NCBI RefSeq assembly: GCF_004353825.1
Contig: NZ_SMNA01000009.1
Span: forward strand, 556 to 64,555
Direction: 5' to 3'
Source: Occultella glacieicola
Lineage (GTDB): Bacteria > Actinomycetota > Actinomycetes > Actinomycetales > Beutenbergiaceae
Length of the DNA stretch: 64,000 nucleotides
Every line of letters starts with the position of its first letter. Position 1 is the first letter of the stretch. Below, piece after piece: positions 1,577 to 62,452 of this stretch. The position numbers and the translations under genes were made by a program. The notes under the pieces were generated by a model, which did no database searches, was not told the origin of the DNA, and was given only the letters and a program-made list of their open reading frames with translations.

Positions 1577-2667
1577 CCACCGGCGCCACCCTGCTCGGCT
1601 CCGACGAACCGCTCCAGACCGCCTACGATGTCGCCCTTCTCGACCTCGACGGCGTCGTGTACCGGGGCGCGTTCGGCGTCGCGGGTGCCCCCGAGGCGGT
1701 GACGGCCGCGCGGGCCGCCGGGATGCGTGTGATGTACGTGACGAACAACGCCGCCCGGGCACCCCAGACGGTCGCCGATCACCTCACCGAGCTCGAGATT
1801 CCGACCAGCGCCCAGGAGGTCACCACCGCCGCACAGGCCGCCGCGGCACTGGTCGCCTCCGAGGCGCACCCGGGCACCCGGGTGCTGACGATCGGTGGCG
1901 AAGGCCTCCGGCTGGCGATGGCCGCCGAGGGCCTCACCGTCGTCGACTCCGCCGATGACGCCCCGACGATCGTGGTCCAGGGCTTCGCGCCGACACTCGG
2001 CTGGCGGGACCTCGCCGAAGCCGTCTACGCGATCCGGGCCGGTGCCGACTACATCGCCTCCAACCTGGATGCGACCCTGCCGACCGACCGCGGCATGGCG
2101 CCCGGGAACGGTGCGCTGGTGGCCGCGGTCGTCCACGCGACCGGCGTCACCCCGCGATCGACCGGTAAGCCGCAGGCCTCGATCTTCCACCAGGCCGCGC
2201 GCCGGTCCGAGGCCCGGAACCCGCTCGTCGTCGGCGACCGGCTGAATACGGACATCGCCGGCGCCCGGGCCGCCGGCTACCCGAGCCTGCACGTCCTGAC
2301 CGGTGTGGACCAGATCACCGACGTCCTGCGGGCCGTCCCGGGGGAGCGGCCCACGTTCCTCGCCGCTGACCTCGCCGGCCTCGCCCGGACCCACCCGCTG
2401 CCCGAGTGGCACGGAGGTGCCTGGACCTGTGGGACGGCCGCGGCTCGGGTCGAGGGGACGACGCTGGTGCTGACCAGGACCGACGGGGAGGTCGCCCTCG
2501 GCGGCGGATCCGACCCGACCGAGGTGTCCCTGGACGAGTTCCGGGCGGCCACAGCCGCCGCGTGGACGGCGACCGACGCCGTCGGGCCCGACCACCCGAG
2601 GAGTGGCGACGCGGGGGGCTCCGTGCTGCCCGCCGACTTTCCACCACTGCGCCTCGCCTCCGAGTGA
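1573..2667 (+). CDS. HAD-superfamily (IIA) phosphatase
   Basis: 364 aa, GTG start overlapping the previous stop. HAD motifs are in order: DLDGVVYRG with nucleophile Asp24 and acid/base Asp26, VTNNAAR (motif II, about residue 56), the GKPQASIF lysine motif and VVGDRLNTDIAGA (motif IV metal-binding Asp). This is the p-nitrophenylphosphatase/NagD-like class with a C2 cap between motifs II and III; the physiological substrate in actinobacteria is unknown. The C-terminal 90 residues after the HAD core are less conserved-looking and may form a small extra domain. The protein is soluble, with no signal peptide. It is the second gene of the tlyA-nadK-recN block, an order conserved across actinobacteria, but no functional link to the ribosome methyltransferase is proven. 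Confidence 0.9.
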   Translation: MTTGATLLGSDEPLQTAYDVALLDLDGVVYRGAFGVAGAPEAVTAARAAGMRVMYVTNNAARAPQTVADHLTELEIPTSAQEVTTAAQAAAALVASEAHPGTRVLTIGGEGLRLAMAAEGLTVVDSADDAPTIVVQGFAPTLGWRDLAEAVYAIRAGADYIASNLDATLPTDRGMAPGNGALVAAVVHATGVTPRSTGKPQASIFHQAARRSEARNPLVVGDRLNTDIAGARAAGYPSLHVLTGVDQITDVLRAVPGERPTFLAADLAGLARTHPLPEWHGGAWTCGTAAARVEGTTLVLTRTDGEVALGGGSDPTEVSLDEFRAATAAAWTATDAVGPDHPRSGDAGGSVLPADFPPLRLASE

Positions 2668-2712
2668 GGGTGCCGCCGGGCCGGTAGCGTGGCCCCCGAA
2701 GGGAGAACGCCC

Positions 2713-2889
2713 GTGCCCACCAGCGACGACACCACCTACGACGAGCCGATCGAGTTCGACGACCCCGAGATCGAGGCCGCGCTCACGGCTCTCGGCGGGC
2801 TGTCCGAGGTGCCGCTCAGCCAGCACGTCGACGCCTTCGAGAACGTCTACCGGGTGCTCCAGGACCGGCTCACCCAGGCCGAGGGCTGA
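2713..2889 (+). CDS. Small conserved acidic protein between HAD phosphatase and tlyA
   Basis: 58 aa with GTG start; an AGGGAGAA-type ribosome site lies 6-10 bases upstream, which favours this start over a GTG 24 bases earlier. The N-terminal half is acidic and unstructured-looking (EPIEFDDPEIEAAL); the C-terminal half is predicted helix (HVDAFENVYRVLQDRL). No known catalytic motif is seen. A small ORF of this kind and place is conserved in the mycobacterial tlyA locus (Rv1693 position, from memory), which supports it as real. It ends one base before tlyA and is very probably co-translated with it. Function unknown; a partner or regulator of its neighbours is only a guess. Confidence 0.7.
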   Translation: MPTSDDTTYDEPIEFDDPEIEAALTALGGLSEVPLSQHVDAFENVYRVLQDRLTQAEG

Positions 2890-2890
2890 C

Positions 2891-3730
2891 GTGGCGCGTC
2901 GGGCGCGCCTGGATGCCGAGCTGGTCCGTCGGGGGCTGGCCCGGTCCCGCCAGCATGCCGCCGAGCTGATCGACGCCTCGCGGGTCCTGCTCGACGGCAG
3001 CGTCGCGACCAAGGCCGCCACCCAGCTCGACCCGGCCCGGGCGGTCCGGCTCCTGCCCCCGCCCGACGGTGCCGAACCGGAGTACGCCTCCCGCGGCGGG
3101 CACAAGCTCGCTGGGGCCCTCGACGCCCTCGGTGACGCGGCCCCCCGGGTGGCCGGGCGCCGGGCTCTGGACGCCGGTGCCTCCACCGGGGGATTCACCG
3201 ACGTGCTGTTGCGCCGCGGCGCCGCCCACGTGGTGGCCGTGGATGTCGGGTACGGCCAGCTCGTCTGGGAGCTCCAGAACGACGAACGGGTCACGGTCCG
3301 GGACCGCACCAACGTCCGCTCGCTCACCCCGGAGGACGTGGCACCGGCACCCGAACTCGTGGTCGGAGACCTGTCCTTCATCTCGCTGACCCTCGTGCTG
3401 CCCGCTCTGGTCGGCGCGGTGGCACCGGACGCGGACCTGCTGCTCATGGTCAAGCCGCAGTTCGAGGTGGGCCGCGAGCGACTCGGATCCGGGGGAGTGG
3501 TCCGGGACGCGGCCCTGCACGCCGACGCCGTTCGCACCGTCGCCCGCGCCGCGGCCGAACTCGGCCTGGCGCTGCGCGCCGTCGTGGCCAGCCCGCTGCC
3601 CGGGCCGAGCGGTAACGTCGAGTACTTCGTCCACCTGAACGCCGGCGACGGCGTGTTCCCCACTTCGGAGGAGATCGACGCGATGATCGCGGTCGCCATC
3701 GAGAACGGTCCAGCGGGGGTGACCCCATGA
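2891..3730 (+). CDS. tlyA: TlyA family 16S/23S rRNA 2'-O-methyltransferase
   Basis: 279 aa, GTG start chosen because the protein then begins MARRARLDAELVRRGLARSR, the usual TlyA N-terminus; upstream frame-open sequence belongs to other genes. Residues about 4-60 form an S4-type RNA-binding domain (RLDAELVRRGLARSRQHAAE). The Rossmann methyltransferase fold follows, with the SAM motif LDAGASTGGFTD near residue 93, and DVGYGQL and VGDLSFISL further on. TlyA proteins methylate 2'-hydroxyls of 16S rRNA (C1409) and 23S rRNA (C1920), and in mycobacteria their loss gives capreomycin resistance. The stop overlaps the nadK start by 4 bases (ATGA), so expression is coupled. Length fits the family. Confidence 0.93.
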   Translation: MARRARLDAELVRRGLARSRQHAAELIDASRVLLDGSVATKAATQLDPARAVRLLPPPDGAEPEYASRGGHKLAGALDALGDAAPRVAGRRALDAGASTGGFTDVLLRRGAAHVVAVDVGYGQLVWELQNDERVTVRDRTNVRSLTPEDVAPAPELVVGDLSFISLTLVLPALVGAVAPDADLLLMVKPQFEVGRERLGSGGVVRDAALHADAVRTVARAAAELGLALRAVVASPLPGPSGNVEYFVHLNAGDGVFPTSEEIDAMIAVAIENGPAGVTP

Positions 3731-4575
3731 GTCGCCGGGTCCTGGTCCTGACCCACCCCACCCGGCCGGCCGCGGTGCACACCGCGGACTCCGTCGCCGC
3801 CGGGCTGCGTGATCGCGGCATGACGCCCATCGACGAGTCGGAGGTCGACGGCGGCGAGATCGAACTCGCGATCGTGCTGGGCGGCGACGGCACGATCCTG
3901 CGTGCCGCCGAGCTCATCCGCGGCCGCGAGACCCCCCTGGTCGGGATCAACCTCGGTCACGTGGGCTTCCTCGCGGAGTCCGAGGTGGACCGGGTCGCGG
4001 ACGTCGTGCGCCGGGCCGCCGAGCGCGACTACGTCGTCGAGGAACGGATGACGCTGGACGTGGCCGTCCAGCGCCCGGACTCCGACGACGTCACCCGGGG
4101 GTGGGCGATCAACGAAGCCAGCGTGGAGAAGAGCGAGCGCGAGCGGATGATCGAGGTCGCGATCGGCATCGACGAACGTGGCCTGTCCACGTTCGGGTGC
4201 GACGGCGTCGTGCTCGCGACCCCCACCGGGTCCACCGCCTACGCGTTCTCCGCCGGCGGCCCGGTGGTGTGGCCGGACGTGGAGGCCATGTTGCTCACCC
4301 CGATCAGCGCCCACGCCCTGTTCGCCCGGCCGCTCGTGGTCGGCCCGGATTCGCGCATGTCCGTCGAGATCCTCGCCCGCAGCTATTCGGCGGCCGTGGT
4401 GTGGTGCGATGGCCGGCGGCGGATCGAGGCCCCGCCGGGATCCCACATCGACGTGGTTCGTGGGGCCGAACCGGTCCGGCTGGCGCGGCTGAACCTGGCC
4501 CCGTTCACCGACCGCCTGGTCGGCAAGTTCAATCTGCCCGTGGCCGGCTGGCGGGGCGGCCGGGAGGCGCCGTGA
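3727..4575 (+). CDS. nadK: NAD kinase
   Basis: 282 aa, ATG inside the tlyA stop. It phosphorylates NAD to NADP, using ATP or polyphosphate in actinobacteria. The diagnostic GGDGT motif is at residues 52-56, followed by INLGHVGFLAE and the glycine-rich TPTGSTAYAFSAGGP loop; NEASVEK (NE/D motif) lies between them. The N-terminal sheet is short compared with many bacterial NadK proteins, but both conserved domains are complete. The end overlaps the recN GTG start by 4 bases, so tlyA-nadK-recN are read as one translationally coupled unit, as in mycobacteria. Confidence 0.95.
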   Translation: MSRRVLVLTHPTRPAAVHTADSVAAGLRDRGMTPIDESEVDGGEIELAIVLGGDGTILRAAELIRGRETPLVGINLGHVGFLAESEVDRVADVVRRAAERDYVVEERMTLDVAVQRPDSDDVTRGWAINEASVEKSERERMIEVAIGIDERGLSTFGCDGVVLATPTGSTAYAFSAGGPVVWPDVEAMLLTPISAHALFARPLVVGPDSRMSVEILARSYSAAVVWCDGRRRIEAPPGSHIDVVRGAEPVRLARLNLAPFTDRLVGKFNLPVAGWRGGREAP

Positions 4576-6326
4576 TCGAGGAGATCCGCATCGAGAACCT
4601 GGGCGTGATCGTGTCCGCCCGGATCGAGCTGTCCCCGGGCCTGACGGTCATCACCGGTGAGACCGGCGCCGGCAAGACGATGGTGCTGACCGGACTCGAC
4701 CTGCTCCTCGGCGGCAAGGCCGATGCCGGTGCCGTACGGCCCGGCGCCGACGCCGCCTCCGTCGAGGGTCGCCTCGTGCCACCGGCCGGCCACCCGGCGC
4801 TGGCCCTGGCCACCGACGCCGGCGCCCTGCTCGACGACGACGCCCTGATCGTCGTCCGGACGGTGGCCGCTGCCGGGCGTTCGCGCGCTCACCTCGGCGG
4901 CCGCACCGTGCCCCAGGGACTGCTCGCGGACGTCGGCGCGGAACTGGTCACCGTGCACGGGCAGAGCGACCAGCTCCGGCTACGGTCGAGCGCACACCAG
5001 CGCCAGGCCCTGGACGCCTTCGCCGGACCCGAGCACCTCGACACCCTGGAGAACTACGCCCGGGCCCACACCCGTCGTCGGGCCCTGGAGCGTGAGCTGG
5101 CCGACTGGGACGCCGAGGTCACCGACCGGCGCGATGAACTCGCCCGGCTGGAACGCGACCTGGAACGCATCGACGCCCTCGAACCGGTCCCGGGGGAGCT
5201 GACCACCCTGCGTGAGGAGGCCGAACGCCTCGGCAATGTCGAGGAACTACGGCTCGCGTCGGACCAGGCGCACGACGCGCTCGCCGGCAGCAACGACTCC
5301 GCGGAGGCCATCGACGCCCCGAACGCCGTCGAGCTGATCGAGGCGGCCCGGCGGGCCCTCGCGGCCGCGGAGAGTTACGACGGCCGACTGGCGGACTGGT
5401 CGACCCGGCTGGCCCAGCTGTCCTACCAGGCCAGCGACCTGGTCACGGAGATCAGCAGCTACGCCAGTGCCCTCGAGGCGGATCCGGAACGGCTCGAACA
5501 GGTGCACGAGCGCCGGTCCGCGCTCGGGGAGCTGACCCGCGCCTTCGCCGACCCCGGGGACCCCGCCGATACTGACCCGCTCACCGCGGTGCTGGCGTAC
5601 GCCACGTCCGCCCGGGCTCGAGTGGGTGAACTCACCGCACCCGGCGCCGGCCGGGACGCCCTCGAGACCCGCCTCGCCGAGGCCACGGAGACCGAGACCA
5701 CGGCGGCGGCGGCCCTGACCGCCGGCCGGCGGGCCGCCGCGGAGGCCATGGCGCGGGCCGTCGATGCCGAACTCGCCGGACTGGCCATGGGCGGCGCGAG
5801 CATCGAGGTGGCCCTGAGCCCCCGCGAGGAACTCGCCGGCTGGGGCGCCGAGGATGTCGAGCTGCTCCTGGTCGCCCATCGGGGCGCCCCGGCGCGCCCG
5901 CTCGCCAAGGGGGCCTCCGGCGGCGAGATGTCCCGGGTGATGCTGGCGATCGAGGTCGCCCTCGCCCGGGAGCAGGCGACCACCACCGACAGTGCGCTGC
6001 CCACGTTCGTCTTCGACGAGGTGGACGCCGGGGTCGGCGGGCGCGCCGCCGTCGAGGTGGGTCGCCGCCTGGCCGAGCTGGCCAGGCACACCCAGGTGAT
6101 CATCGTCACCCACCTCGCTCAGGTCGCCGCCTACGCGGACCGGCACGTCGTGGTCACCAAGACCACCCACGACGGCGCGGATGCGGTGACGAACAGCGAC
6201 CTGCGCGAGGTGACCGGCGCCGACCGCGAGGCCGAACTGGCCCGCATGCTCAGCGGCGATGCGGACTCCGACACCGCCATGCGGCATGCCGCGGAACTCC
6301 TCGAACGGACGGGCGTGGGACCATAG
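4572..6326 (+). CDS. recN: DNA repair protein RecN
   Basis: 584 aa. The GTG start overlaps the nadK stop and gives the canonical N-terminus VIEEIRIENLGVI. This SMC-like ATPase acts early in double-strand break repair. Walker A GETGAGKT is at residues 29-36, with TVHGQSDQLRL (Q-loop area) near 130. A long coiled-coil pair rich in Glu/Arg/Ala spans about 165-440. The ABC signature GASGGEMSRVMLA and Walker B PTFVFDEVDAGVGG lie near the C-terminus, followed by HLAQVAAYAD. Length matches typical RecN (550-590 aa). No LexA box is obvious, because the gene has no intergenic space of its own; SOS control, if any, would act from upstream. Confidence 0.95.
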   Translation: MIEEIRIENLGVIVSARIELSPGLTVITGETGAGKTMVLTGLDLLLGGKADAGAVRPGADAASVEGRLVPPAGHPALALATDAGALLDDDALIVVRTVAAAGRSRAHLGGRTVPQGLLADVGAELVTVHGQSDQLRLRSSAHQRQALDAFAGPEHLDTLENYARAHTRRRALERELADWDAEVTDRRDELARLERDLERIDALEPVPGELTTLREEAERLGNVEELRLASDQAHDALAGSNDSAEAIDAPNAVELIEAARRALAAAESYDGRLADWSTRLAQLSYQASDLVTEISSYASALEADPERLEQVHERRSALGELTRAFADPGDPADTDPLTAVLAYATSARARVGELTAPGAGRDALETRLAEATETETTAAAALTAGRRAAAEAMARAVDAELAGLAMGGASIEVALSPREELAGWGAEDVELLLVAHRGAPARPLAKGASGGEMSRVMLAIEVALAREQATTTDSALPTFVFDEVDAGVGGRAAVEVGRRLAELARHTQVIIVTHLAQVAAYADRHVVVTKTTHDGADAVTNSDLREVTGADREAELARMLSGDADSDTAMRHAAELLERTGVGP

Positions 6327-54994: not shown

Positions 54995-56638
54995 TCAGCG
55001 GCCCAGTGCCCCGTACCGGAACTTGAACGACGCGTCCAGCGTGTCCGAGACCCCGGTGATGTCGGTCGCCGCGACGGCCACCTGGGCACCCTGCAGGTAG
55101 GGGACCGTGGACAGGTCGGCCGCGACCAGGTCCTGCACCTGCTCGATCAGCGCGGTGCGCTCGGTCTCGTCGACGGTGGTCGCCTGCGCCAGGATGAGGT
55201 CGTTGACCTCCTGGTTCTCGTAGTGGTTGCCGAGGAAGTTCTCGGTGAGGAAGAACGGCGACAGATAGGTGTCCGCGTCCGAGTAGTCCGGGAACCAGCC
55301 GAGCTGGTACGCCGGGTAGAGGTCCTGAGTGCGCTCGGCCGAGTAGGCGTCCCACAAGGTCGAGTTGAGCTGCACGTCGAACAGGCCGGTCGCCTCCAGT
55401 TGCGCCTCGATCATGGCGTACTCCTCGTCCGAGGAGGCGCCGTAGTGGTCGGGGCTGTACTGCAGGTTCAGCGGCACCGGCGTGGTCACGCCGGCGTCCG
55501 CGAGCGCGGCGGTGGCGGCATCGACGTCCGGGCCACCGGAGCCGTCACCGTAGAGGCCCTGCAGCGCCGTGTTCGCACCGGTCAGGCCCTCCGGCACGTA
55601 GGAGTACAACGGGGTGTAAGTGCCCTGGTAGATCTCCTCGGACAGGGCGTTCCGATCGATCACATGCGCGACGGCCTGCCGGACCGCGAGGGCCTTGGCC
55701 GGGTCCGGTTCCGCGGTGGTGGCACCGTACGGCTGGGTGTTGAAGTTGAACACGATGTAGCGGATCTCCCCACCGGGGCCGTCGTGGACCGTCACGGAGT
55801 CGTCCGAGCGCAGGTCGCCGATGTCGGTCGGGCTCATCGACCGGAACGCCACGTCGACGTCGCCCTCCTGCACGGCGAGCTTCAGCGAGGTCTCCTCGGC
55901 GAAGTACTGCACCGTGATCTCGTCGGTGACGGCCGGTGGCAGCACGCCGGCGTAGCCATCGAACGCCGTGTACCGGATCACCTCGTTCTCCACGTAGTCG
56001 CTGATCGTGTACTGCCCGGCGAAGGCCTCGGCCTCGGCGATATCGGCCGACGGCGTCACCTCGGTCGCGGAGAAGACCTCCTCGTCCACGATCGGGGCCA
56101 CCGCGGAGGCCAGGATCTGCGGGAAGACCTGGTCGTTCTCGCTGAGCAGGTGGAAGACCACCGTGGTCTCATCGACGACCTCGGTGCTCTCCAGGTTGTA
56201 GAGCAGGGCGGCCGGGCCCTGCGGGTCGTTGATGGCGACCTGGCGGTCGAACGTGAACTTGACGTCGGAGGCGGTCAGCGCGTGGCCGTTCGCGAAGGTC
56301 AGGTCCGGCTTGAGCACCACCGTGTACTCGGTCGGAGCGGTGAACTCCGCGGACACGGCGATGTCCGGTTCCACGTCCGGTGACCCGTAAGGGTTGTTCA
56401 TCAGGAATGGGTACACCTGGAGCATGACGGTCAAGGACCCGTTGTCGTAGGACCCGGCGGGATCCAGCGAGATGATCACGTCGGTGGTGCCCACCGTGAT
56501 GCCACCGCCGGCGTCCCCACCGGTGCCGTCATCGGCGTTCGGGTCCTCGGTCTCCGCGCAGGCGGCGAGCACGAGGGCGAGGGCGGCGGCGGTGCCGACC
56601 ACGCTCAGGCCGCGGCGCCGGAAGCTGGCTGTAGCCAT
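54995..56638 (-). CDS. Oligopeptide ABC importer substrate-binding lipoprotein
   Basis: 547 aa. ATG 56638 preferred over ATG 56647 because AAGGA lies 8 bases before it. Lipoprotein signal peptide FRRRGLSVVGTAAALALVLA with lipobox LAAC, Cys about residue 28, then a low-complexity Asp/Gly linker (PNADDGTGGDAGGG). The mature domain is an SBP type 2 (DppA/OppA) fold: VTLKPDLTFANGHALTASDV-like start (visible VLKPDLTFANGHALTASDVK), VEYAEETSLKLAVQEGDVDV-like middle, QAVAHVIDRNALSEEIYQGT. It delivers peptides to the DppBC channel. It is first gene of the four-gene unit. Confidence 0.92.
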   Translation of the reverse strand: MATASFRRRGLSVVGTAAALALVLAACAETEDPNADDGTGGDAGGGITVGTTDVIISLDPAGSYDNGSLTVMLQVYPFLMNNPYGSPDVEPDIAVSAEFTAPTEYTVVLKPDLTFANGHALTASDVKFTFDRQVAINDPQGPAALLYNLESTEVVDETTVVFHLLSENDQVFPQILASAVAPIVDEEVFSATEVTPSADIAEAEAFAGQYTISDYVENEVIRYTAFDGYAGVLPPAVTDEITVQYFAEETSLKLAVQEGDVDVAFRSMSPTDIGDLRSDDSVTVHDGPGGEIRYIVFNFNTQPYGATTAEPDPAKALAVRQAVAHVIDRNALSEEIYQGTYTPLYSYVPEGLTGANTALQGLYGDGSGGPDVDAATAALADAGVTTPVPLNLQYSPDHYGASSDEEYAMIEAQLEATGLFDVQLNSTLWDAYSAERTQDLYPAYQLGWFPDYSDADTYLSPFFLTENFLGNHYENQEVNDLILAQATTVDETERTALIEQVQDLVAADLSTVPYLQGAQVAVAATDITGVSDTLDASFKFRYGALGR

Positions 56639-56830
56639 GTTCCACATCCTTAGTGCGATCTCCGGGTCCGCGGGTACACGGACTCCTCAGGCGATGCCTG
56701 TCCACATCTTCGTGGAGTGATGTCTAGCACACGGAGGTCGCGTTTTGATTACGGGCCCCGCTCACCGAAGACCTTTTGCTTGCCGCGTTGGAGTGTAATC
56801 ATGTAAGCAAGTAACGATGGGAGACGCCTC
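56639..56830. other. Divergent spacer between peptide importer and unknown gene
   Basis: 192 bases holding both promoters. Around 56776-56810 the sequence is AT-richer with a loose inverted pair TTGCTT and AAGCAA, and TTGGAG (56788-56793) with TAACGA (56812-56817) at 18 bases is a possible plus-strand promoter. GGGAGACG before ATG 56831 is the ribosome site. The importer promoter is not obvious. Confidence 0.4.
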
Positions 56831-57454
56831 ATGACCAGGAACGAGTACGACGAGGCCGGCGACGACGCCATGTCCGGCGAGCGGTTCGGCGGCCGTGGTC
56901 GCGGTGACCGACGCGGGGGCGCGCGCGGCAGGGGTCGCGGCGGCTGGCAGGTCGCCGACCTTCCGGCCGCCGACGACGCCGCGGACTGGTTCCTCGGCAG
57001 GTTGCCGCAGGCCTGGTTCACCGAGGTCGAGGTGACCGTCGACCGTGAGGAGATCCTCGTCGTCGGGACCCTGGCCGTGCAGACCGTCGGGGCGGCCGAA
57101 GGGGCCGAGGCCGAGGGCCGGATCGGCCGGTTCCGCGCCGAGACCAGGGCCGAGCGGATCGAGATCGCCGAGGAGGCACAGGCCCGATACCGGCGCACGG
57201 TCTCCTGGGGCGCCCGGCTGGGCGGTACCTCCGCCCTGTTCACCCATGTCGCGGCGCCGGTGATGACCCGGCTGCGTCAGCCCGAGCGTCGGGTGCTCGA
57301 CACGCTGGTCGACGCCGGGGTGGCCCGCTCCCGATCCGACGCGCTCGCCTGGTCGGTGCGGCTGGTCGGCGAGCACGCCGACGAGTGGCTCGGCCGCCTC
57401 CGTGAGGCGATGGCGGAGGTCGACGAACTCCGGTCCCAGGGGCCGGCGCTCTGA
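56831..57454 (+). CDS. Conserved protein of unknown function with Arg/Gly-rich N-terminus
   Basis: 207 aa, ATG with GGGAGAC upstream. The first 40 residues are RGG-like (FGGRGRGDRRGGARGRGRGG), often seen in RNA-binding tails. A mixed alpha/beta part follows (DWFLGRLPQAWFTEVEVTVD, EILVVGTLAV), then a helical C-terminus (MTRLRQPERRVLDTLVDAGV, SRSDALAWSVRLVGEHADEW) resembling ribbon-helix or transcription-factor-like helices. I do not recognise a named family, though similar actinobacterial proteins exist. It precedes the barstar-like module by 22 bases. Confidence 0.75.
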   Translation: MTRNEYDEAGDDAMSGERFGGRGRGDRRGGARGRGRGGWQVADLPAADDAADWFLGRLPQAWFTEVEVTVDREEILVVGTLAVQTVGAAEGAEAEGRIGRFRAETRAERIEIAEEAQARYRRTVSWGARLGGTSALFTHVAAPVMTRLRQPERRVLDTLVDAGVARSRSDALAWSVRLVGEHADEWLGRLREAMAEVDELRSQGPAL

Positions 57455-57463
57455 GGAGGCCAC

Positions 57464-57476
57464 TAGCCTGGGGAGT
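57464..57476 (+). promoter_or_regulatory. -10 hexamer before the barstar-like frame
   Basis: TAGCCT (57464-57469) lies 7 bases before GTG 57477; the GGGGAG between them is too close to the start for a ribosome site. It fits the leaderless pattern. Confidence 0.45.
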
Positions 57477-58883
57477 GTGCCCTGGATCGATGCCCTCACC
57501 GAGGCGCCGACGGCCGCCGGGCCGTACGACGTGTGGCACCGGATCGACGGCACCCGTGCCCGCACCAAGTCGGACCTGCTCGGTGAGCTCGCGCGGGTGC
57601 TGGAGTTCCCGGACTGGTTCGGGAGGAACTGGGACGCGCTCTTCGACTGCCTCCTCGGGCTCGAGCGGCTGGGCCCGGAGCGGCGCGGCGTAGCCCGGGC
57701 CGGCCTACCCCGCTCCGGACGGCGGGTGGGTACCGGCAAGCACGTGCTCGCCCTCACCGATCCCGAGGACCTGCTGATCGACGCCGAGGACGAACTCGGC
57801 ACGTTCCTCCAGGTGCTGACCGACGCCCGCCTGTACGGCGTCGGCGCCGCGGTGGTCACGGACGCTCCCGAGCGGTGGCGCGCGCGAGCCCGCCGGGCCG
57901 TGTCGGCCCGCCGTGACAGACTCGCGCCCATGGACCGACTGATGCTCCTGGACACTGCGAGCCTGTACTTCCGCGCCTTCTTCGGTGTGCCCGACTCGAT
58001 CAGGGCGCCCGACGGCACCCAGGTCAACGCCGTGCGTGGCCTGCTGGACTTCATCACCCGGCTCGTCGAGCAGTACCGGCCCACCCACCTGGTCTGCTGC
58101 TGGGACAACGACTGGCGACCGCAGTGGCGGGTGGACCTGATCCCCTCCTACAAGGCGCACCGGGTCGAGGAGGTGGTTCCCGGCGGCTCCGACGTGGAGG
58201 AGGTGCCGGACCCGCTCCAGGTCCAGATCCCGATCATCGTGGCGACGCTGGAGGCGCTCGGGATCACGATCGCCGGGGCGGACGGCTACGAGGCCGACGA
58301 CGTGATCGGCACCCTGGCCACCGACGCGGGCATGCCCGTCGACGTGGTCACCGGGGACCGGGACCTGTTCCAACTCGTCGACGACAACGCCGTCGGTGGT
58401 CCGGTGCGGGTGCTCTACACCGCGCGCGGTGTGGGCCGGCACGAGGTTCTCACCGACGCCGTCGTCATGGAGAAGTACGGGGTGCGGCCGGACCAGTACG
58501 CCGACTTCGCGACCATGCGGGGGGACACCTCGGACGGCCTGCCCGGGGTGTCCGGGGTGGGGGAGAAGACCGCCGCGTCGTTGCTCGCGAGTTTCGGGGA
58601 CCTCGCCGGGATCCGGGCTGCCGCCGCCGACCCGGCGACCCCGCTCGCCGCCGGCGTGCGCGCGAAGCTCAAGGCCGCCTCGGACTACCTGGACGTGGCC
58701 CCGCAGGTGGTCGCGGTCGCCCGTCGGATCAACCTCGGTGAGCTGGACGCCGCGCTGCCGGGGAGCGGCCCCGGCCACCCGGTGCCCCGCGACCCCGCGG
58801 CGCTCGCCGACCTGGTCGAGCGGTGGGGCCTGGGCGGGTCGGTCAGCCGCCTGCTGGAGGCGCTCACACCGGCCACATCGTGA
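57477..58883 (+). CDS. Barstar-like module with no stop of its own, in frame with the exonuclease
   Basis: From GTG 57477 the frame reads PWIDALTEAPTAAGPYDVWH, then the barstar hallmark FPDWFGRNWDALFDCLLGL (residues 44-62) and a complete-looking second half (TGKHVLALTDPEDLLIDAED, FLQVLTDARLYGVG). The usual barstar gene would end near residue 135-145, but no stop occurs and the frame continues through ARRAVSARRDRLAP into the exonuclease, giving 468 residues if not separately initiated. Barstar-family proteins inhibit barnase-like RNases; no RNase gene is adjacent. Either a true fusion, a barstar gene that lost its stop, or two products from one frame. Confidence 0.55.
   Translation: MPWIDALTEAPTAAGPYDVWHRIDGTRARTKSDLLGELARVLEFPDWFGRNWDALFDCLLGLERLGPERRGVARAGLPRSGRRVGTGKHVLALTDPEDLLIDAEDELGTFLQVLTDARLYGVGAAVVTDAPERWRARARRAVSARRDRLAPMDRLMLLDTASLYFRAFFGVPDSIRAPDGTQVNAVRGLLDFITRLVEQYRPTHLVCCWDNDWRPQWRVDLIPSYKAHRVEEVVPGGSDVEEVPDPLQVQIPIIVATLEALGITIAGADGYEADDVIGTLATDAGMPVDVVTGDRDLFQLVDDNAVGGPVRVLYTARGVGRHEVLTDAVVMEKYGVRPDQYADFATMRGDTSDGLPGVSGVGEKTAASLLASFGDLAGIRAAAADPATPLAAGVRAKLKAASDYLDVAPQVVAVARRINLGELDAALPGSGPGHPVPRDPAALADLVERWGLGGSVSRLLEALTPATS
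57930..58883 (+). CDS. 5'-3' exonuclease (PolA N-terminal-like)
   Basis: 317 aa from ATG 57930 (MDRLMLLDTASLYFRAFFGV), the canonical start of this family; CAGACT lies 7 bases upstream. PIN-like/FEN fold with LLDTASLYFRAFF, VCCWDNDWRPQWRVDLIPSY and KAHR, acidic metal site GADGYEADDVIGTLAT and VVTGDRDLFQLV, and the helix-hairpin-helix GLPGVSGVGEKTAASLLASF. It corresponds to the 5' nuclease domain of DNA polymerase I as a stand-alone protein, acting on flaps or primers. It lies in the same open frame as the barstar-like module. Confidence 0.92.
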   Translation: MDRLMLLDTASLYFRAFFGVPDSIRAPDGTQVNAVRGLLDFITRLVEQYRPTHLVCCWDNDWRPQWRVDLIPSYKAHRVEEVVPGGSDVEEVPDPLQVQIPIIVATLEALGITIAGADGYEADDVIGTLATDAGMPVDVVTGDRDLFQLVDDNAVGGPVRVLYTARGVGRHEVLTDAVVMEKYGVRPDQYADFATMRGDTSDGLPGVSGVGEKTAASLLASFGDLAGIRAAAADPATPLAAGVRAKLKAASDYLDVAPQVVAVARRINLGELDAALPGSGPGHPVPRDPAALADLVERWGLGGSVSRLLEALTPATS

Positions 58884-58924: not shown

Positions 58925-61900
58925 ATGCTCCCCGAACGCTCCGCCGCACTGAAGCACGCCATCAGCACCCGGGTGGTCGTCGCCGACGGTGCCATGGGCA
59001 CCATGCTCCAGGACGCCAACCTGACCCTCGACGACTTCCAGGGACTCGAGGGCTGCAACGAGATCCTGAACGTGACCCGCCCCGATGTGATCGAGTCCGT
59101 GCACGACGCGTACTACGCCGTCGGTGTGGACTGTGTCGAGACGAACACGTTCGGCGCGAACTGGTCGAACCTGTCCGACTACGACATCGACGACCGGATC
59201 TTCGAGCTCGCCGAGGCCGGGGCCAGGATCGCGCGACGCAGCGCCGACAAGAACAGCACCGAGGACCACCCGCGCTGGGTGCTCGGGTCCATGGGACCGG
59301 GCACGAAGCTGCCGAGCCTGGGGCACACGACCTACGCCCACCTGAAGGACACGTTCGCCCAGCAGGCCGCCGGCCTGATCGCCGGCGGCGCCGACGCGAT
59401 CCTCGTCGAGACCAGCCAGGACCTGCTGCAGACGAAGGCTGCGATCAACGGGGCCAAGGCCGCGATGACGCAGACCGGCACCGAGTTGCCGATCTTCGCC
59501 CAGGTCACGGTGGAGACCACCGGCACGATGCTGATGGGGTCGGAGATCGGCGCCGCACTGACCACCCTGCGCGCGCTCGGCATCGACTCCATCGGGCTGA
59601 ACTGCGCCACCGGCCCCGCCGAGATGAGCGAGCACCTGCGCCATCTGGCCCGGCACGCCGACCTGCCGATCACTTGCATGCCGAACGCCGGGCTGCCGGT
59701 GCTGGGGGCGAACGGCGCCTCCTACCCGTTGACCCCTCAGGAGCTGGGCATCGCCCACGAGCAGTTCGTGACCGAGTTCGGCCTCGGTCTCGTCGGCGGG
59801 TGCTGCGGCACCACCCCCGAGCACCTGGCGCAGGTGGTGCAGCGGGTCGGCGGCCGGGCCGTCGTCACCCGGTCCCCGGAGCCCGAGCAGGGTGTGGCGA
59901 GCCTGTACTCCCACGTCGACTTCGACCAGGATGCCTCGTTCCTGGCCATCGGCGAACGCACCAACGCGAACGGCTCCAAGGCGTTCCGGGAGGCGATGCT
60001 CGCGGAGAACTGGGACGAGTGCGTCCAGATCGCCCGGGCCCAGACCCGCGACGGCGCGCACCTGCTGGACGTCTGCGTCGACTACGTCGGCCGGGACGGC
60101 GTCGCCGACGCCCGCGCGGTCATCTCGAGGCTGGCCAGCGCGTCCACGCTGCCCCTGGTGATCGACTCCACCGAGCCGGACGTGGTCCGCGCCGGCCTGG
60201 AGCTGGTGGGTGGCCGGGCCGTGGTCAACTCGGTGAACTTCGAGGACGGCGACGGCCCCGAGTCCCGCTACGCCAAGGTCATGCCGATCGTGAAGGAGCA
60301 CGGCGCCGCCGTCATCGCCCTGACCATCGACGAGGAGGGCCAGGCCCGCACCGCCGAGACGAAGGTGGCGATCGCGTCCCGGCTCATCGAGGAGCTCACC
60401 GGCACCTGGGGGATGGCGATCGAGGACATCATCGTCGACGCCCTCACGTTCCCGATCGGCACCGGCCAGGAGGAGACCCGGCGGGACGCCATCGAGACGA
60501 TCGAGGCGATCCGGGCGCTGAAGGCGAAGTACCCCGGCGTGCACACCACGCTGGGGGTCTCGAACGTGTCCTTCGGGCTGAACCCGGCCGCCCGCGTGGT
60601 CCTCAACTCGGTGTTCCTGCACGAGGCGGTGCAGGCCGGACTCGACTCGGCGATCGTGCACGCCGCGAAGATCCTGCCGCTCGCGAAGATCCCCGACGAG
60701 CAGCGCCAGGCCGCACTCGACCTGGTCTGGGACCGCCGTGAGTTCGACGAGACCGGTGCGATGACGCACGACCCTCTCGCGCACCTGCTCGACCTCTTCT
60801 CCGGGGTGGACTCGGCGGCCCTGAAGGACCAGCGAGCCGCGGAGCTGGCGGCGCTGCCGCTGGGTGAGCGGCTGCAGCGGCGCATCGTCGACGGCGAGAT
60901 GAAGGGTCTCGACGACGATCTCGCGGCCGCCCTCGGCGAGGGCTGGAGCGCTCTGGCGATCATCAACGACCACCTGCTCGAGGGCATGAAGGTGGTCGGC
61001 GAACTGTTCGGGCGCGGCGAGATGCAGCTGCCGTTCGTGCTGCAGTCCGCCGAGACCATGAAGTCCGCGGTGGCCTACCTCGAGCCGTACATCGAGAAGA
61101 CGGACGAGGCCGGCAAGGGCACCATCGTCCTGGGCACCGTGCGCGGCGACGTGCACGACATCGGCAAGAACCTCGTGGACATCATCCTCACGAACAACGG
61201 CTACACCGTGGTCAACATCGGGATCAAGCAGCCGATCTCGGCGATGATCGAGGCCGCGGAGGAGCACAACGCGGACGTCATCGGAATGAGTGGCCTGCTG
61301 GTGAAGTCCACCGTGGTGATGAAGGAGAACCTCGAGGAGCTCGCCTCCCGCGGGCTCGCCGGGAAGTACCCGGTGCTGCTCGGCGGCGCCGCGCTGACGC
61401 GCGTGTATGTCGAGGACGACCTGGCCGGGCTGTATCCGGGCGAGGTGCGCTACGCCCGCGACGCCTTCGAAGGGCTGCGCCTGATGGAGCCGCTGGTACG
61501 GGTCGCCCGGGGAGAGGCGCGCGACGCCGTCGGGCTCCCCGCGTTGAAGAAGCGGATCCACGCGAGAGTGACGGTGGACGAGACGGCGCCCGAGGACCTG
61601 CCGGCCCGTTCGGACGTGAGCCTGACCAACGAGGTTCCCACCCCGCCGTTCTGGGGCACCCGGATCGTCAGGGGAATCAAGCTCGCCGACTACGCCGCGT
61701 TCCTCGACGAGCGGGCCACCTTCATGGGGCAGTGGGGGCTCAAGCCGTCCCGCGACGGGGAGGTCTCCTACGAACAGCTCGTCGAGACCGAGGGACGGCC
61801 ACGGCTGCGCGAGTGGCTCGACCGCATCCAGACCGAGGAGATGTTCGCACCTGCGGTGGTCTACGGGTACTTCCCGGCGGTGTCCGAGGGCGACGACCTG

Positions 61901-62452
61901 GTGATCCTGCACCACGACGGTCCGGACGGCGGATCCGGGGGTGAGCCGGGCACCGAGCGGGTCCGGTTCACGTTCCCTCGGCAGCGCCGGGACCGGCATC
62001 TGTGCCTGGCCGACTTCGTGCGCCCGCGGGAGTCCGGTGAGGTCGACGTGGTCGGCTTCCAGCTCGTCACCGTGGGCGCGGCCGTCAACGACCATACGGC
62101 CCGGCTGTTCGCCGCCAACGCGTACCGGGACTACATGGAGCTGCACGGACTGTCGGTGCAGCTGACCGAGTCGCTCGCCGAGTTCTGGCACTCCCGGATC
62201 CGCGAGGAGCTCGGCTTCTCGGCCGAGGACCCGGACGACGTCGAGGGCATGTTCAAAGTCGCCTACCGGGGGGCTCGGTACTCGCTCGGCTATCCCGCCT
62301 GCCCGGACATGGAGGACCGTCGCAAGATCGTGGACCTGCTCCGCGCCGAGCGGATCGGGGTCGAGCTCTCGGAGGAGCTGCAGCTGCACCCCGAACAGTC
62401 CACCGACGCCATCGTGTTCCACCACCCCGAGGCGAAGTACTTCTCCGTCTGA
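58925..62452 (+). CDS. metH: Cobalamin-dependent methionine synthase
   Basis: 1175 aa, ATG start (MLPERSAALKHAISTRVVVA). Four modules in order. Homocysteine domain about 1-310: VADGAMGTMLQD, zinc ligands in GLNCATGP and GGCCGTTPEHL. Pterin domain about 330-620: FLAIGERTNANGSKAFREAM, LLDVCVDYVGRDG. Cobalamin domain about 640-870: cap LLEGMKVVGELFGRGEMQLP and B12-binding DVHDIGKNLVDIIL with the base-off His. Activation domain about 930-1175: RDRHLCLADFVRP, RGARYSLGYPACPDMEDR. It methylates homocysteine from methyl-tetrahydrofolate. Length and domain order fit the family. Confidence 0.96.
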   Translation: MLPERSAALKHAISTRVVVADGAMGTMLQDANLTLDDFQGLEGCNEILNVTRPDVIESVHDAYYAVGVDCVETNTFGANWSNLSDYDIDDRIFELAEAGARIARRSADKNSTEDHPRWVLGSMGPGTKLPSLGHTTYAHLKDTFAQQAAGLIAGGADAILVETSQDLLQTKAAINGAKAAMTQTGTELPIFAQVTVETTGTMLMGSEIGAALTTLRALGIDSIGLNCATGPAEMSEHLRHLARHADLPITCMPNAGLPVLGANGASYPLTPQELGIAHEQFVTEFGLGLVGGCCGTTPEHLAQVVQRVGGRAVVTRSPEPEQGVASLYSHVDFDQDASFLAIGERTNANGSKAFREAMLAENWDECVQIARAQTRDGAHLLDVCVDYVGRDGVADARAVISRLASASTLPLVIDSTEPDVVRAGLELVGGRAVVNSVNFEDGDGPESRYAKVMPIVKEHGAAVIALTIDEEGQARTAETKVAIASRLIEELTGTWGMAIEDIIVDALTFPIGTGQEETRRDAIETIEAIRALKAKYPGVHTTLGVSNVSFGLNPAARVVLNSVFLHEAVQAGLDSAIVHAAKILPLAKIPDEQRQAALDLVWDRREFDETGAMTHDPLAHLLDLFSGVDSAALKDQRAAELAALPLGERLQRRIVDGEMKGLDDDLAAALGEGWSALAIINDHLLEGMKVVGELFGRGEMQLPFVLQSAETMKSAVAYLEPYIEKTDEAGKGTIVLGTVRGDVHDIGKNLVDIILTNNGYTVVNIGIKQPISAMIEAAEEHNADVIGMSGLLVKSTVVMKENLEELASRGLAGKYPVLLGGAALTRVYVEDDLAGLYPGEVRYARDAFEGLRLMEPLVRVARGEARDAVGLPALKKRIHARVTVDETAPEDLPARSDVSLTNEVPTPPFWGTRIVRGIKLADYAAFLDERATFMGQWGLKPSRDGEVSYEQLVETEGRPRLREWLDRIQTEEMFAPAVVYGYFPAVSEGDDLVILHHDGPDGGSGGEPGTERVRFTFPRQRRDRHLCLADFVRPRESGEVDVVGFQLVTVGAAVNDHTARLFAANAYRDYMELHGLSVQLTESLAEFWHSRIREELGFSAEDPDDVEGMFKVAYRGARYSLGYPACPDMEDRRKIVDLLRAERIGVELSEELQLHPEQSTDAIVFHHPEAKYFSV

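Follow-up and report, generated by a model that had tools for sequence, protein, structure and literature searches.

The genome of Occultella glacieicola, an actinobacterium, carries a gene in which a barstar domain is joined to a complete FenA-type 5'-3' exonuclease in a single open reading frame. Barstar is ordinarily a small inhibitor of a toxin that cuts RNA, and FenA is a nuclease of DNA repair. The gene was found in a stretch of 64,000 nucleotides, hereafter called the window, and the same stop-free frame is present in all four of the Occultella genomes examined. We regard it as probable that this barstar-fenA frame has two promoters and gives two proteins, of 468 and 317 amino acids; judged from the nucleotide sequence, the products are most likely a 50-kDa fusion protein and a 34-kDa free FenA.

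In the ancestor of Occultella a barstar gene would have landed directly upstream of a stand-alone fenA with no stop codon between them, and the barstar frame would now continue across the promoter of fenA and into that gene. A pair of -10 boxes, both 7 nt ahead of a start codon, would then let a single frame yield two proteins in the window species: from the upstream box the barstar-FenA protein of 468 amino acids, and from the box within the last barstar codons, by way of a leaderless mRNA, the free FenA of 317 amino acids. Ordinary flap processing would fall to the free FenA, while the barstar function, either RNase inhibition or targeting, would belong to the fused form.

The fused reading frame and its neighbours

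The fused frame lies on the forward strand at 57477..58883, from GTG 57477, the presumed start codon, to the TGA at 58881-58883, and encodes 468 amino acids with a computed mass of 50.3 kDa; the open frame also extends upstream past 57477. The barstar domain (Pfam PF01337) is encoded at 57537..57827, residues 21-117, and includes an Arg-rich insertion at 57669..57740, residues 65-88, recognized by alignment and charge count. The frame of the FenA-type 5'-3' exonuclease or flap nuclease follows on the same strand at 57930..58883 (317 amino acids, 33.5 kDa computed). The Pfam scores of Barstar, 5_3_exonuc_N and 5_3_exonuc (the C-terminal SAM-fold domain) are 60.3, 154.8 and 67.5 bits, respectively, and all exceed the curated cut-offs. 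Between the two parts lies the linker (R)RDRLAP (57909..57929), the 6-7 residues by which the fusion extends past the ends of those four free barstars whose C-terminal alignment is best. The barstar frame has no stop of its own, so free barstar cannot be produced by ordinary termination, and the maintained product should therefore be the fusion, unless translation ends in some unknown way.

Two promoter-like elements accompany the frame. The sequence TAGCCT at 57464..57469, 7 nt before GTG 57477, is a candidate -10 box that would drive the upstream transcript (that of the fusion), a role suggested by its agreement with the TANNNT leaderless rule. The extended -10 element TGACAGACT at 57914..57922, which contains the hexamer CAGACT at 57917-57922, lies within the coding sequence and is the predicted leaderless promoter of the free FenA, whose start is ATG 57930. 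An earlier note on this DNA, made from the sequence alone, had described a barstar that runs without a stop and in the same frame into a PolA-type 5' nuclease, with a second start, CAGACT followed by ATG 57930, in between; the first description is borne out by the frame and the Pfam matches, and the coordinates of the second start are correct, the extended -10 element being TGACAGACT.

Directly before the fusion there is an AbmR-type gene at 56831-57454 (NCBIfam NF058631, 249.5 bits), preceded on the opposite strand by the gene of a putative solute-binding protein, named from its sequence, at 54995-56647. The gene at 58925-62452 is presumably that of methionine synthase (MetH). The order solute-binding protein, barstar-FenA and MetH (95% identity in MetH) is common to the other three Occultella species, in which no AbmR match was found in the 10-11 kb read around the fusion.

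The FenA half

The best match of known structure is 6c33, a "5'-3' exonuclease" (282 bits), in which residues 5-314 align with residues 155-463 of the fusion, nearly end to end; we take 6c33 (PDB 6c33-6c36) to be the FenA of Mycobacterium smegmatis. The residues D159, D274, D275, D294, D296, D350 and D353, which are invariant in 31 sequences, are presumably the metal ligands of the active site. By its domains and its acidic residues, the part encoded at 57930..58883 is a FenA or PolA-type 5' nuclease with predicted flap endonuclease and 5' exonuclease activity. In addition, a second match, of PolA size, occurs in every Occultella genome, with frames of 969-972 amino acids.

The stand-alone flap endonuclease/5' exonuclease FenA is MSMEG_3883 in M. 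smegmatis, where fenA can be deleted; the deletion is reported to have had no effect in the NucS mismatch repair assay and to have lowered the frequency of recombineering (PMC11551767). A role of FenA in NucS mismatch repair was dropped in view of this published deletion. Since fenA is deletable in M. smegmatis and every Occultella genome holds a PolA-sized match, an alteration in part of the FenA pool should be tolerable.

Conservation of the fusion in Occultella

The fused frames of the Occultella relatives are 88-89% identical to the window, and from the barstar core onward the four frames align without a single indel. The earlier note had proposed to look for the same junction in relatives, and had named a stop codon after the barstar gene in relatives, or a sequencing error at the junction, as what would refute a fusion. 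The junction is present in 4/4 Occultella genomes, none of the three other genomes examined has a stop after the barstar, and a sequencing error is ruled out by the agreement of the four genomes.

Across the six species pairs dN/dS is 0.10-0.23 in the barstar core, 0-0.34 in the last 21 codons before ATG 57930 and 0.04-0.12 in the exonuclease, and a looser 0.20-0.88 in the N-terminal tail; upstream of 57477, comparison of the other three Occultella species yields 1.1-2.4. Purifying selection acts on the barstar codons, and because dN/dS is low over the barstar core, the barstar half is a maintained protein part. This constraint means that the protein part matters and says nothing of whether the fused state matters. 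Two neighbouring genes share a frame by chance in one case in three, and long open frames are common in the GC-rich DNA of the window, several of them overlapping, so an open frame alone is weak proof. The fusion is raised above chance by the four genomes without a stop, by the low dN/dS of the barstar and by the rarity of the junction motif, TGN[CT]AG[AG]NT, of which the 64-kb window, both strands counted, has only two occurrences, one of them at the junction.

The constraint on both halves also agrees with a passive history, to which we give somewhat less than an even chance: the loss of the stop would have been neutral, the barstar useful and its FenA tail tolerated, and the free FenA would come from the internal promoter. 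The activity of FenA may be backed up, as the PolA-sized matches and the deletable fenA of M. smegmatis suggest (PMC11551767). Against such neutrality, a single substitution, for example in the TGG codon of W134, would be enough to create a stop at the end of the barstar, and none of the four species has such a stop; moreover, a helix predicted at residues 131-149, with pLDDT 93-95 in its blocks, continues into the linker. A more active history is put forward tentatively, as the less likely of the two. An immunity domain freed from its toxin would have been recruited as an N-terminal module of FenA, with a linker that is a live promoter, two forms of FenA, and the insertion and the helical tail as adaptations to the new role.

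The promoter within the junction

The spacing between TGACAGACT and ATG 57930 is 7 nt, and the first base of the hexamer stands 13 nt before the ATG, at the position of a leaderless -10 box; furthermore, the 7-nt spacer has no purine-rich stretch that would indicate a Shine-Dalgarno leader. In the leaderless rule, as given in two papers, a TANNNT box lies about 12 bp before the start (PMC3160421, PMC3898074), and according to the former 19.2% of actinobacterial genes on average are predicted to be leaderless. CAGACT differs from the canonical TANNNT in its first base (C, not T). The junction box fits the rule in its spacing, not in its first base.

The motif TGN[CT]AG[AG]NT, 5-8 nt from an in-frame start, was found in 39/104 unfused fenA loci versus 6/10,400 control windows drawn from the same 104 loci. 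The box contains CAG at all 39 of these loci, which makes a C in the first place usual for fenA. With a looser hexamer, lacking the TG and with a spacing of 2-12 nt, 58/104 loci qualify; the control windows refer to the strict motif alone.

The box also puts a rare codon into the barstar frame, as its AGA is one of only two AGA among 163 Arg codons in five genes or gene parts (those of the solute-binding protein, AbmR, the barstar part, the FenA part and MetH). This codon and the extended -10 element are identical in 4/4 Occultella species. Such codon identity is not unique to the junction: over the gene, 228/376 codons identical in amino acid are also identical in DNA, and the longest runs of DNA identity lie elsewhere in the gene or start at 57929. 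The linker sequence of the window species is (R)RDRLAP; the other three species have (R)RDRLGD.

Fifteen free barstars were aligned with the fusion. L184, L189, L192 and L197, the best aligners at the C-terminus, stop 6-7 residues before the Met of FenA, L121 and L205 extend beyond this point, and the remaining ones end earlier; L182 has the highest overall identity (40% versus 33-37% for L184-L197) but an earlier end. An early end of the barstar by a frameshift to TGA 57914, in another frame, was considered as well; that TGA is part of the extended -10 element.

It is improbable that the junction box is a dead relic, with an inactive internal promoter and FenA made throughout the genus solely in fused form. 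The departure of the box from TANNNT in the first base would agree with a relic, and the strict motif is absent from 65/104 unfused fenA loci and from 13/15 in the same family, being present there only in L016 and L022; however, a box of the CAG[AG]NT type stands at a suitable distance in seven of these 15, a first-place C is the rule wherever the strict motif occurs before fenA, and the Occultella motif, which contains a rare codon, has the right spacing and does not differ among the four species. The earlier note had offered two readings, an internal-start gene pair with two products and a self-restrained nuclease. The former is well supported, by a box, a spacing and an exonuclease start that match those of many unfused orthologs and by the AGA kept in 4/4 species, whereas no positive evidence was obtained for the latter.

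As a separate observation, the other three Occultella species (loci L002, L003 and L004) have an extra TGCCAGA[CA]T box, situated some 75-90 nt ahead of the barstar ATG. A GTG 7 nt after this box starts a conserved out-of-frame reading frame of 24 codons, the TGA of which overlaps the barstar ATG (ATGA). This small frame may encode a leader peptide, itself leaderless, whose translation is coupled to that of the fusion.

The barstar half and its missing RNase

The barstar profile score of 60.3 bits compares with a cut-off of 23.4. When the barstar part alone was modelled by AlphaFold (mean pLDDT 81.7), its best Foldseek matches were barstar crystals, with E 9.8e-5 and a TM of 0.72 by target length. 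The motif DxxxD, named for Imm-Barstar in PMC3482391, is present as D53ALFD57 and is invariant in the four Occultella species; the same paper describes Imm-Barstar as specifically associated with barnase-like toxins. The Arg-rich insertion, 24 residues with a net charge of +6, is missing or much shorter in the 15 aligned free barstars.

No barnase-type RNase gene lies near the barstar, either in the window or at L174-L176. A search of the four Occultella genomes with PF00545 gave no match at E<=0.1, the best two having E 0.38 and 0.52 and 13-14 bits (best 13.7) versus a cut-off of 24. PF00545 was rejected as the sole test for an RNase partner, and a profile of 20 barstar-linked RNases was built, because PF00545 missed the RNases of two genomes (G568 and G437). 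The new profile gave no match at E<=1 in the four Occultella genomes among 150 of the 219-282 candidates per genome; its positive controls (G033, G568, G437 and G054) contributed rows to it, so they show that the search works, not how far it reaches. The RNases that escape PF00545 are the barstar-linked secreted RNases of L184 (G437) and L189 (G568), two genomes having been tried, and PF00545 may therefore under-count barnase-type partners.

A guanyl-RNase gene is present in the locus at 48/71 distinct free barstar places outside Occultella, a count that used four RNase queries taken from the barstar loci themselves and from which L036, L037, L142 and L177 were dropped as weak or false barstars, the weak L212 and L213 being kept. 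At the other 23/71 the locus, as far as it was read, contains no RNase, and an orphan barstar is therefore not unusual in itself.

In the joint AlphaFold model of the fusion the FenA part mostly exceeds pLDDT 90 and the barstar half is mostly below 50, since only four sequences cover the barstar; with this low confidence, contacts between barstar and FenA cannot be judged. An alignment that combined the fusions with exonucleases and free barstars was discarded, since it laid the latter over the exonuclease. We consider it very unlikely that the barstar part binds back onto FenA and keeps it blocked until some release. In its favour, the barstar fold is that of an inhibitor, and the core, leaving out the insertion, is acidic (net -10), as would be expected of a nucleic-acid mimic; however, the whole barstar part has a net charge of 0, the FenA half is itself acidic (net -17), the joint model places the barstar half without confidence, and barstar is specifically described as tied to barnase-like toxins (PMC3482391), FenA being a different kind of nuclease. 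Least probable of all is a mere artefact, in which a sequencing error or a chance open frame, of the sort frequent in GC-rich DNA, corresponds to no fused protein, as four genomes share the frame with no indel from the barstar core on and with low dN/dS.

Distribution and novelty

Outside Occultella no barstar was found beside FenA at any of 104 unfused FenA loci (L005-L030 and L040-L117; 101 distinct, as L040-L042 duplicate L013, L014 and L007), within flanks of 1.5 to 3 kb (less at a few loci close to the end of a contig), and a motif search agrees; none of the 104 has the Occultella neighbour genes within the flank. Barstar matches occur in 2/20 other genomes of the family (G007 and G015), on contigs other than those of their fenA, in 56/297 genomes of the order (four of them Occultella) and in 77/394 genomes of the class (one being the window's own). 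A fusion with FenA needs a frame of about 420 amino acids or more, and all barstar matches with frames of at least 420 amino acids were read: among these frames, which reach 930 amino acids, in the 297 genomes of the order and the 394 of the class, FenA is found only in Occultella. The matches with frames below 420 amino acids were partly read, and unfused FenA neighbours of those barstars lie outside this test. The nearest barstar on a record of the plasmid collection is a 36% match from Nonomuraea.

The earlier note knew of no described barstar-exonuclease fusion, and this agrees with a search of the open-access literature, in which no report was found, judged by titles and the openings of abstracts (subscription papers and web domain databases lay outside its scope). 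Among the papers listed on Occultella, none deals with this gene to judge by its title. The novelty is the architecture; the component parts are already known. An independent neighbourhood of the barstar, RNase and exonuclease families exists at L173, on a 13.7-kb contig (G033 contig 206), where a barstar gene is followed at about 2440-5431, all on the same strand, by genes of a guanyl RNase and, beyond it, of a divergent 5'-3' exonuclease (31% identity).

Significance and comparison with known systems

If the proposed account of two promoters and two proteins is true, a gene fusion has formed without loss of the downstream gene's own expression, and the four sequenced genomes present a clear case of it. 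It would also mean that a leaderless promoter needs only about 16 nt, which can be read as a few residues of a linker, and, given the 19.2% of actinobacterial genes predicted to be leaderless (PMC3160421), this route of fusion may be general. Moreover, an orphan antitoxin-type domain would gain a new partner that can be tested.

The Occultella nuclease aligns nearly end to end with M. smegmatis FenA and keeps the conserved acidic residues, but the solved FenA has no N-terminal partner, whereas in Occultella a barstar ends 6-7 residues before the FenA Met. The junction resembles leaderless actinobacterial genes in its box and in the 7-nt spacing to ATG 57930, as before many unfused fenA genes, and differs from them in that its box, which reads CAGACT rather than TANNNT, is embedded in codons of another domain that belongs to the same frame. 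With the barnase-barstar and other guanyl RNase-barstar pairs the Occultella barstar shares the Pfam family, the fold and the DxxxD motif; however, the cognate RNase is usually adjacent in such pairs and was not found in the four Occultella genomes searched, and the Occultella barstar is set apart from them by its Arg-rich insertion and by its fusion to a DNA nuclease.
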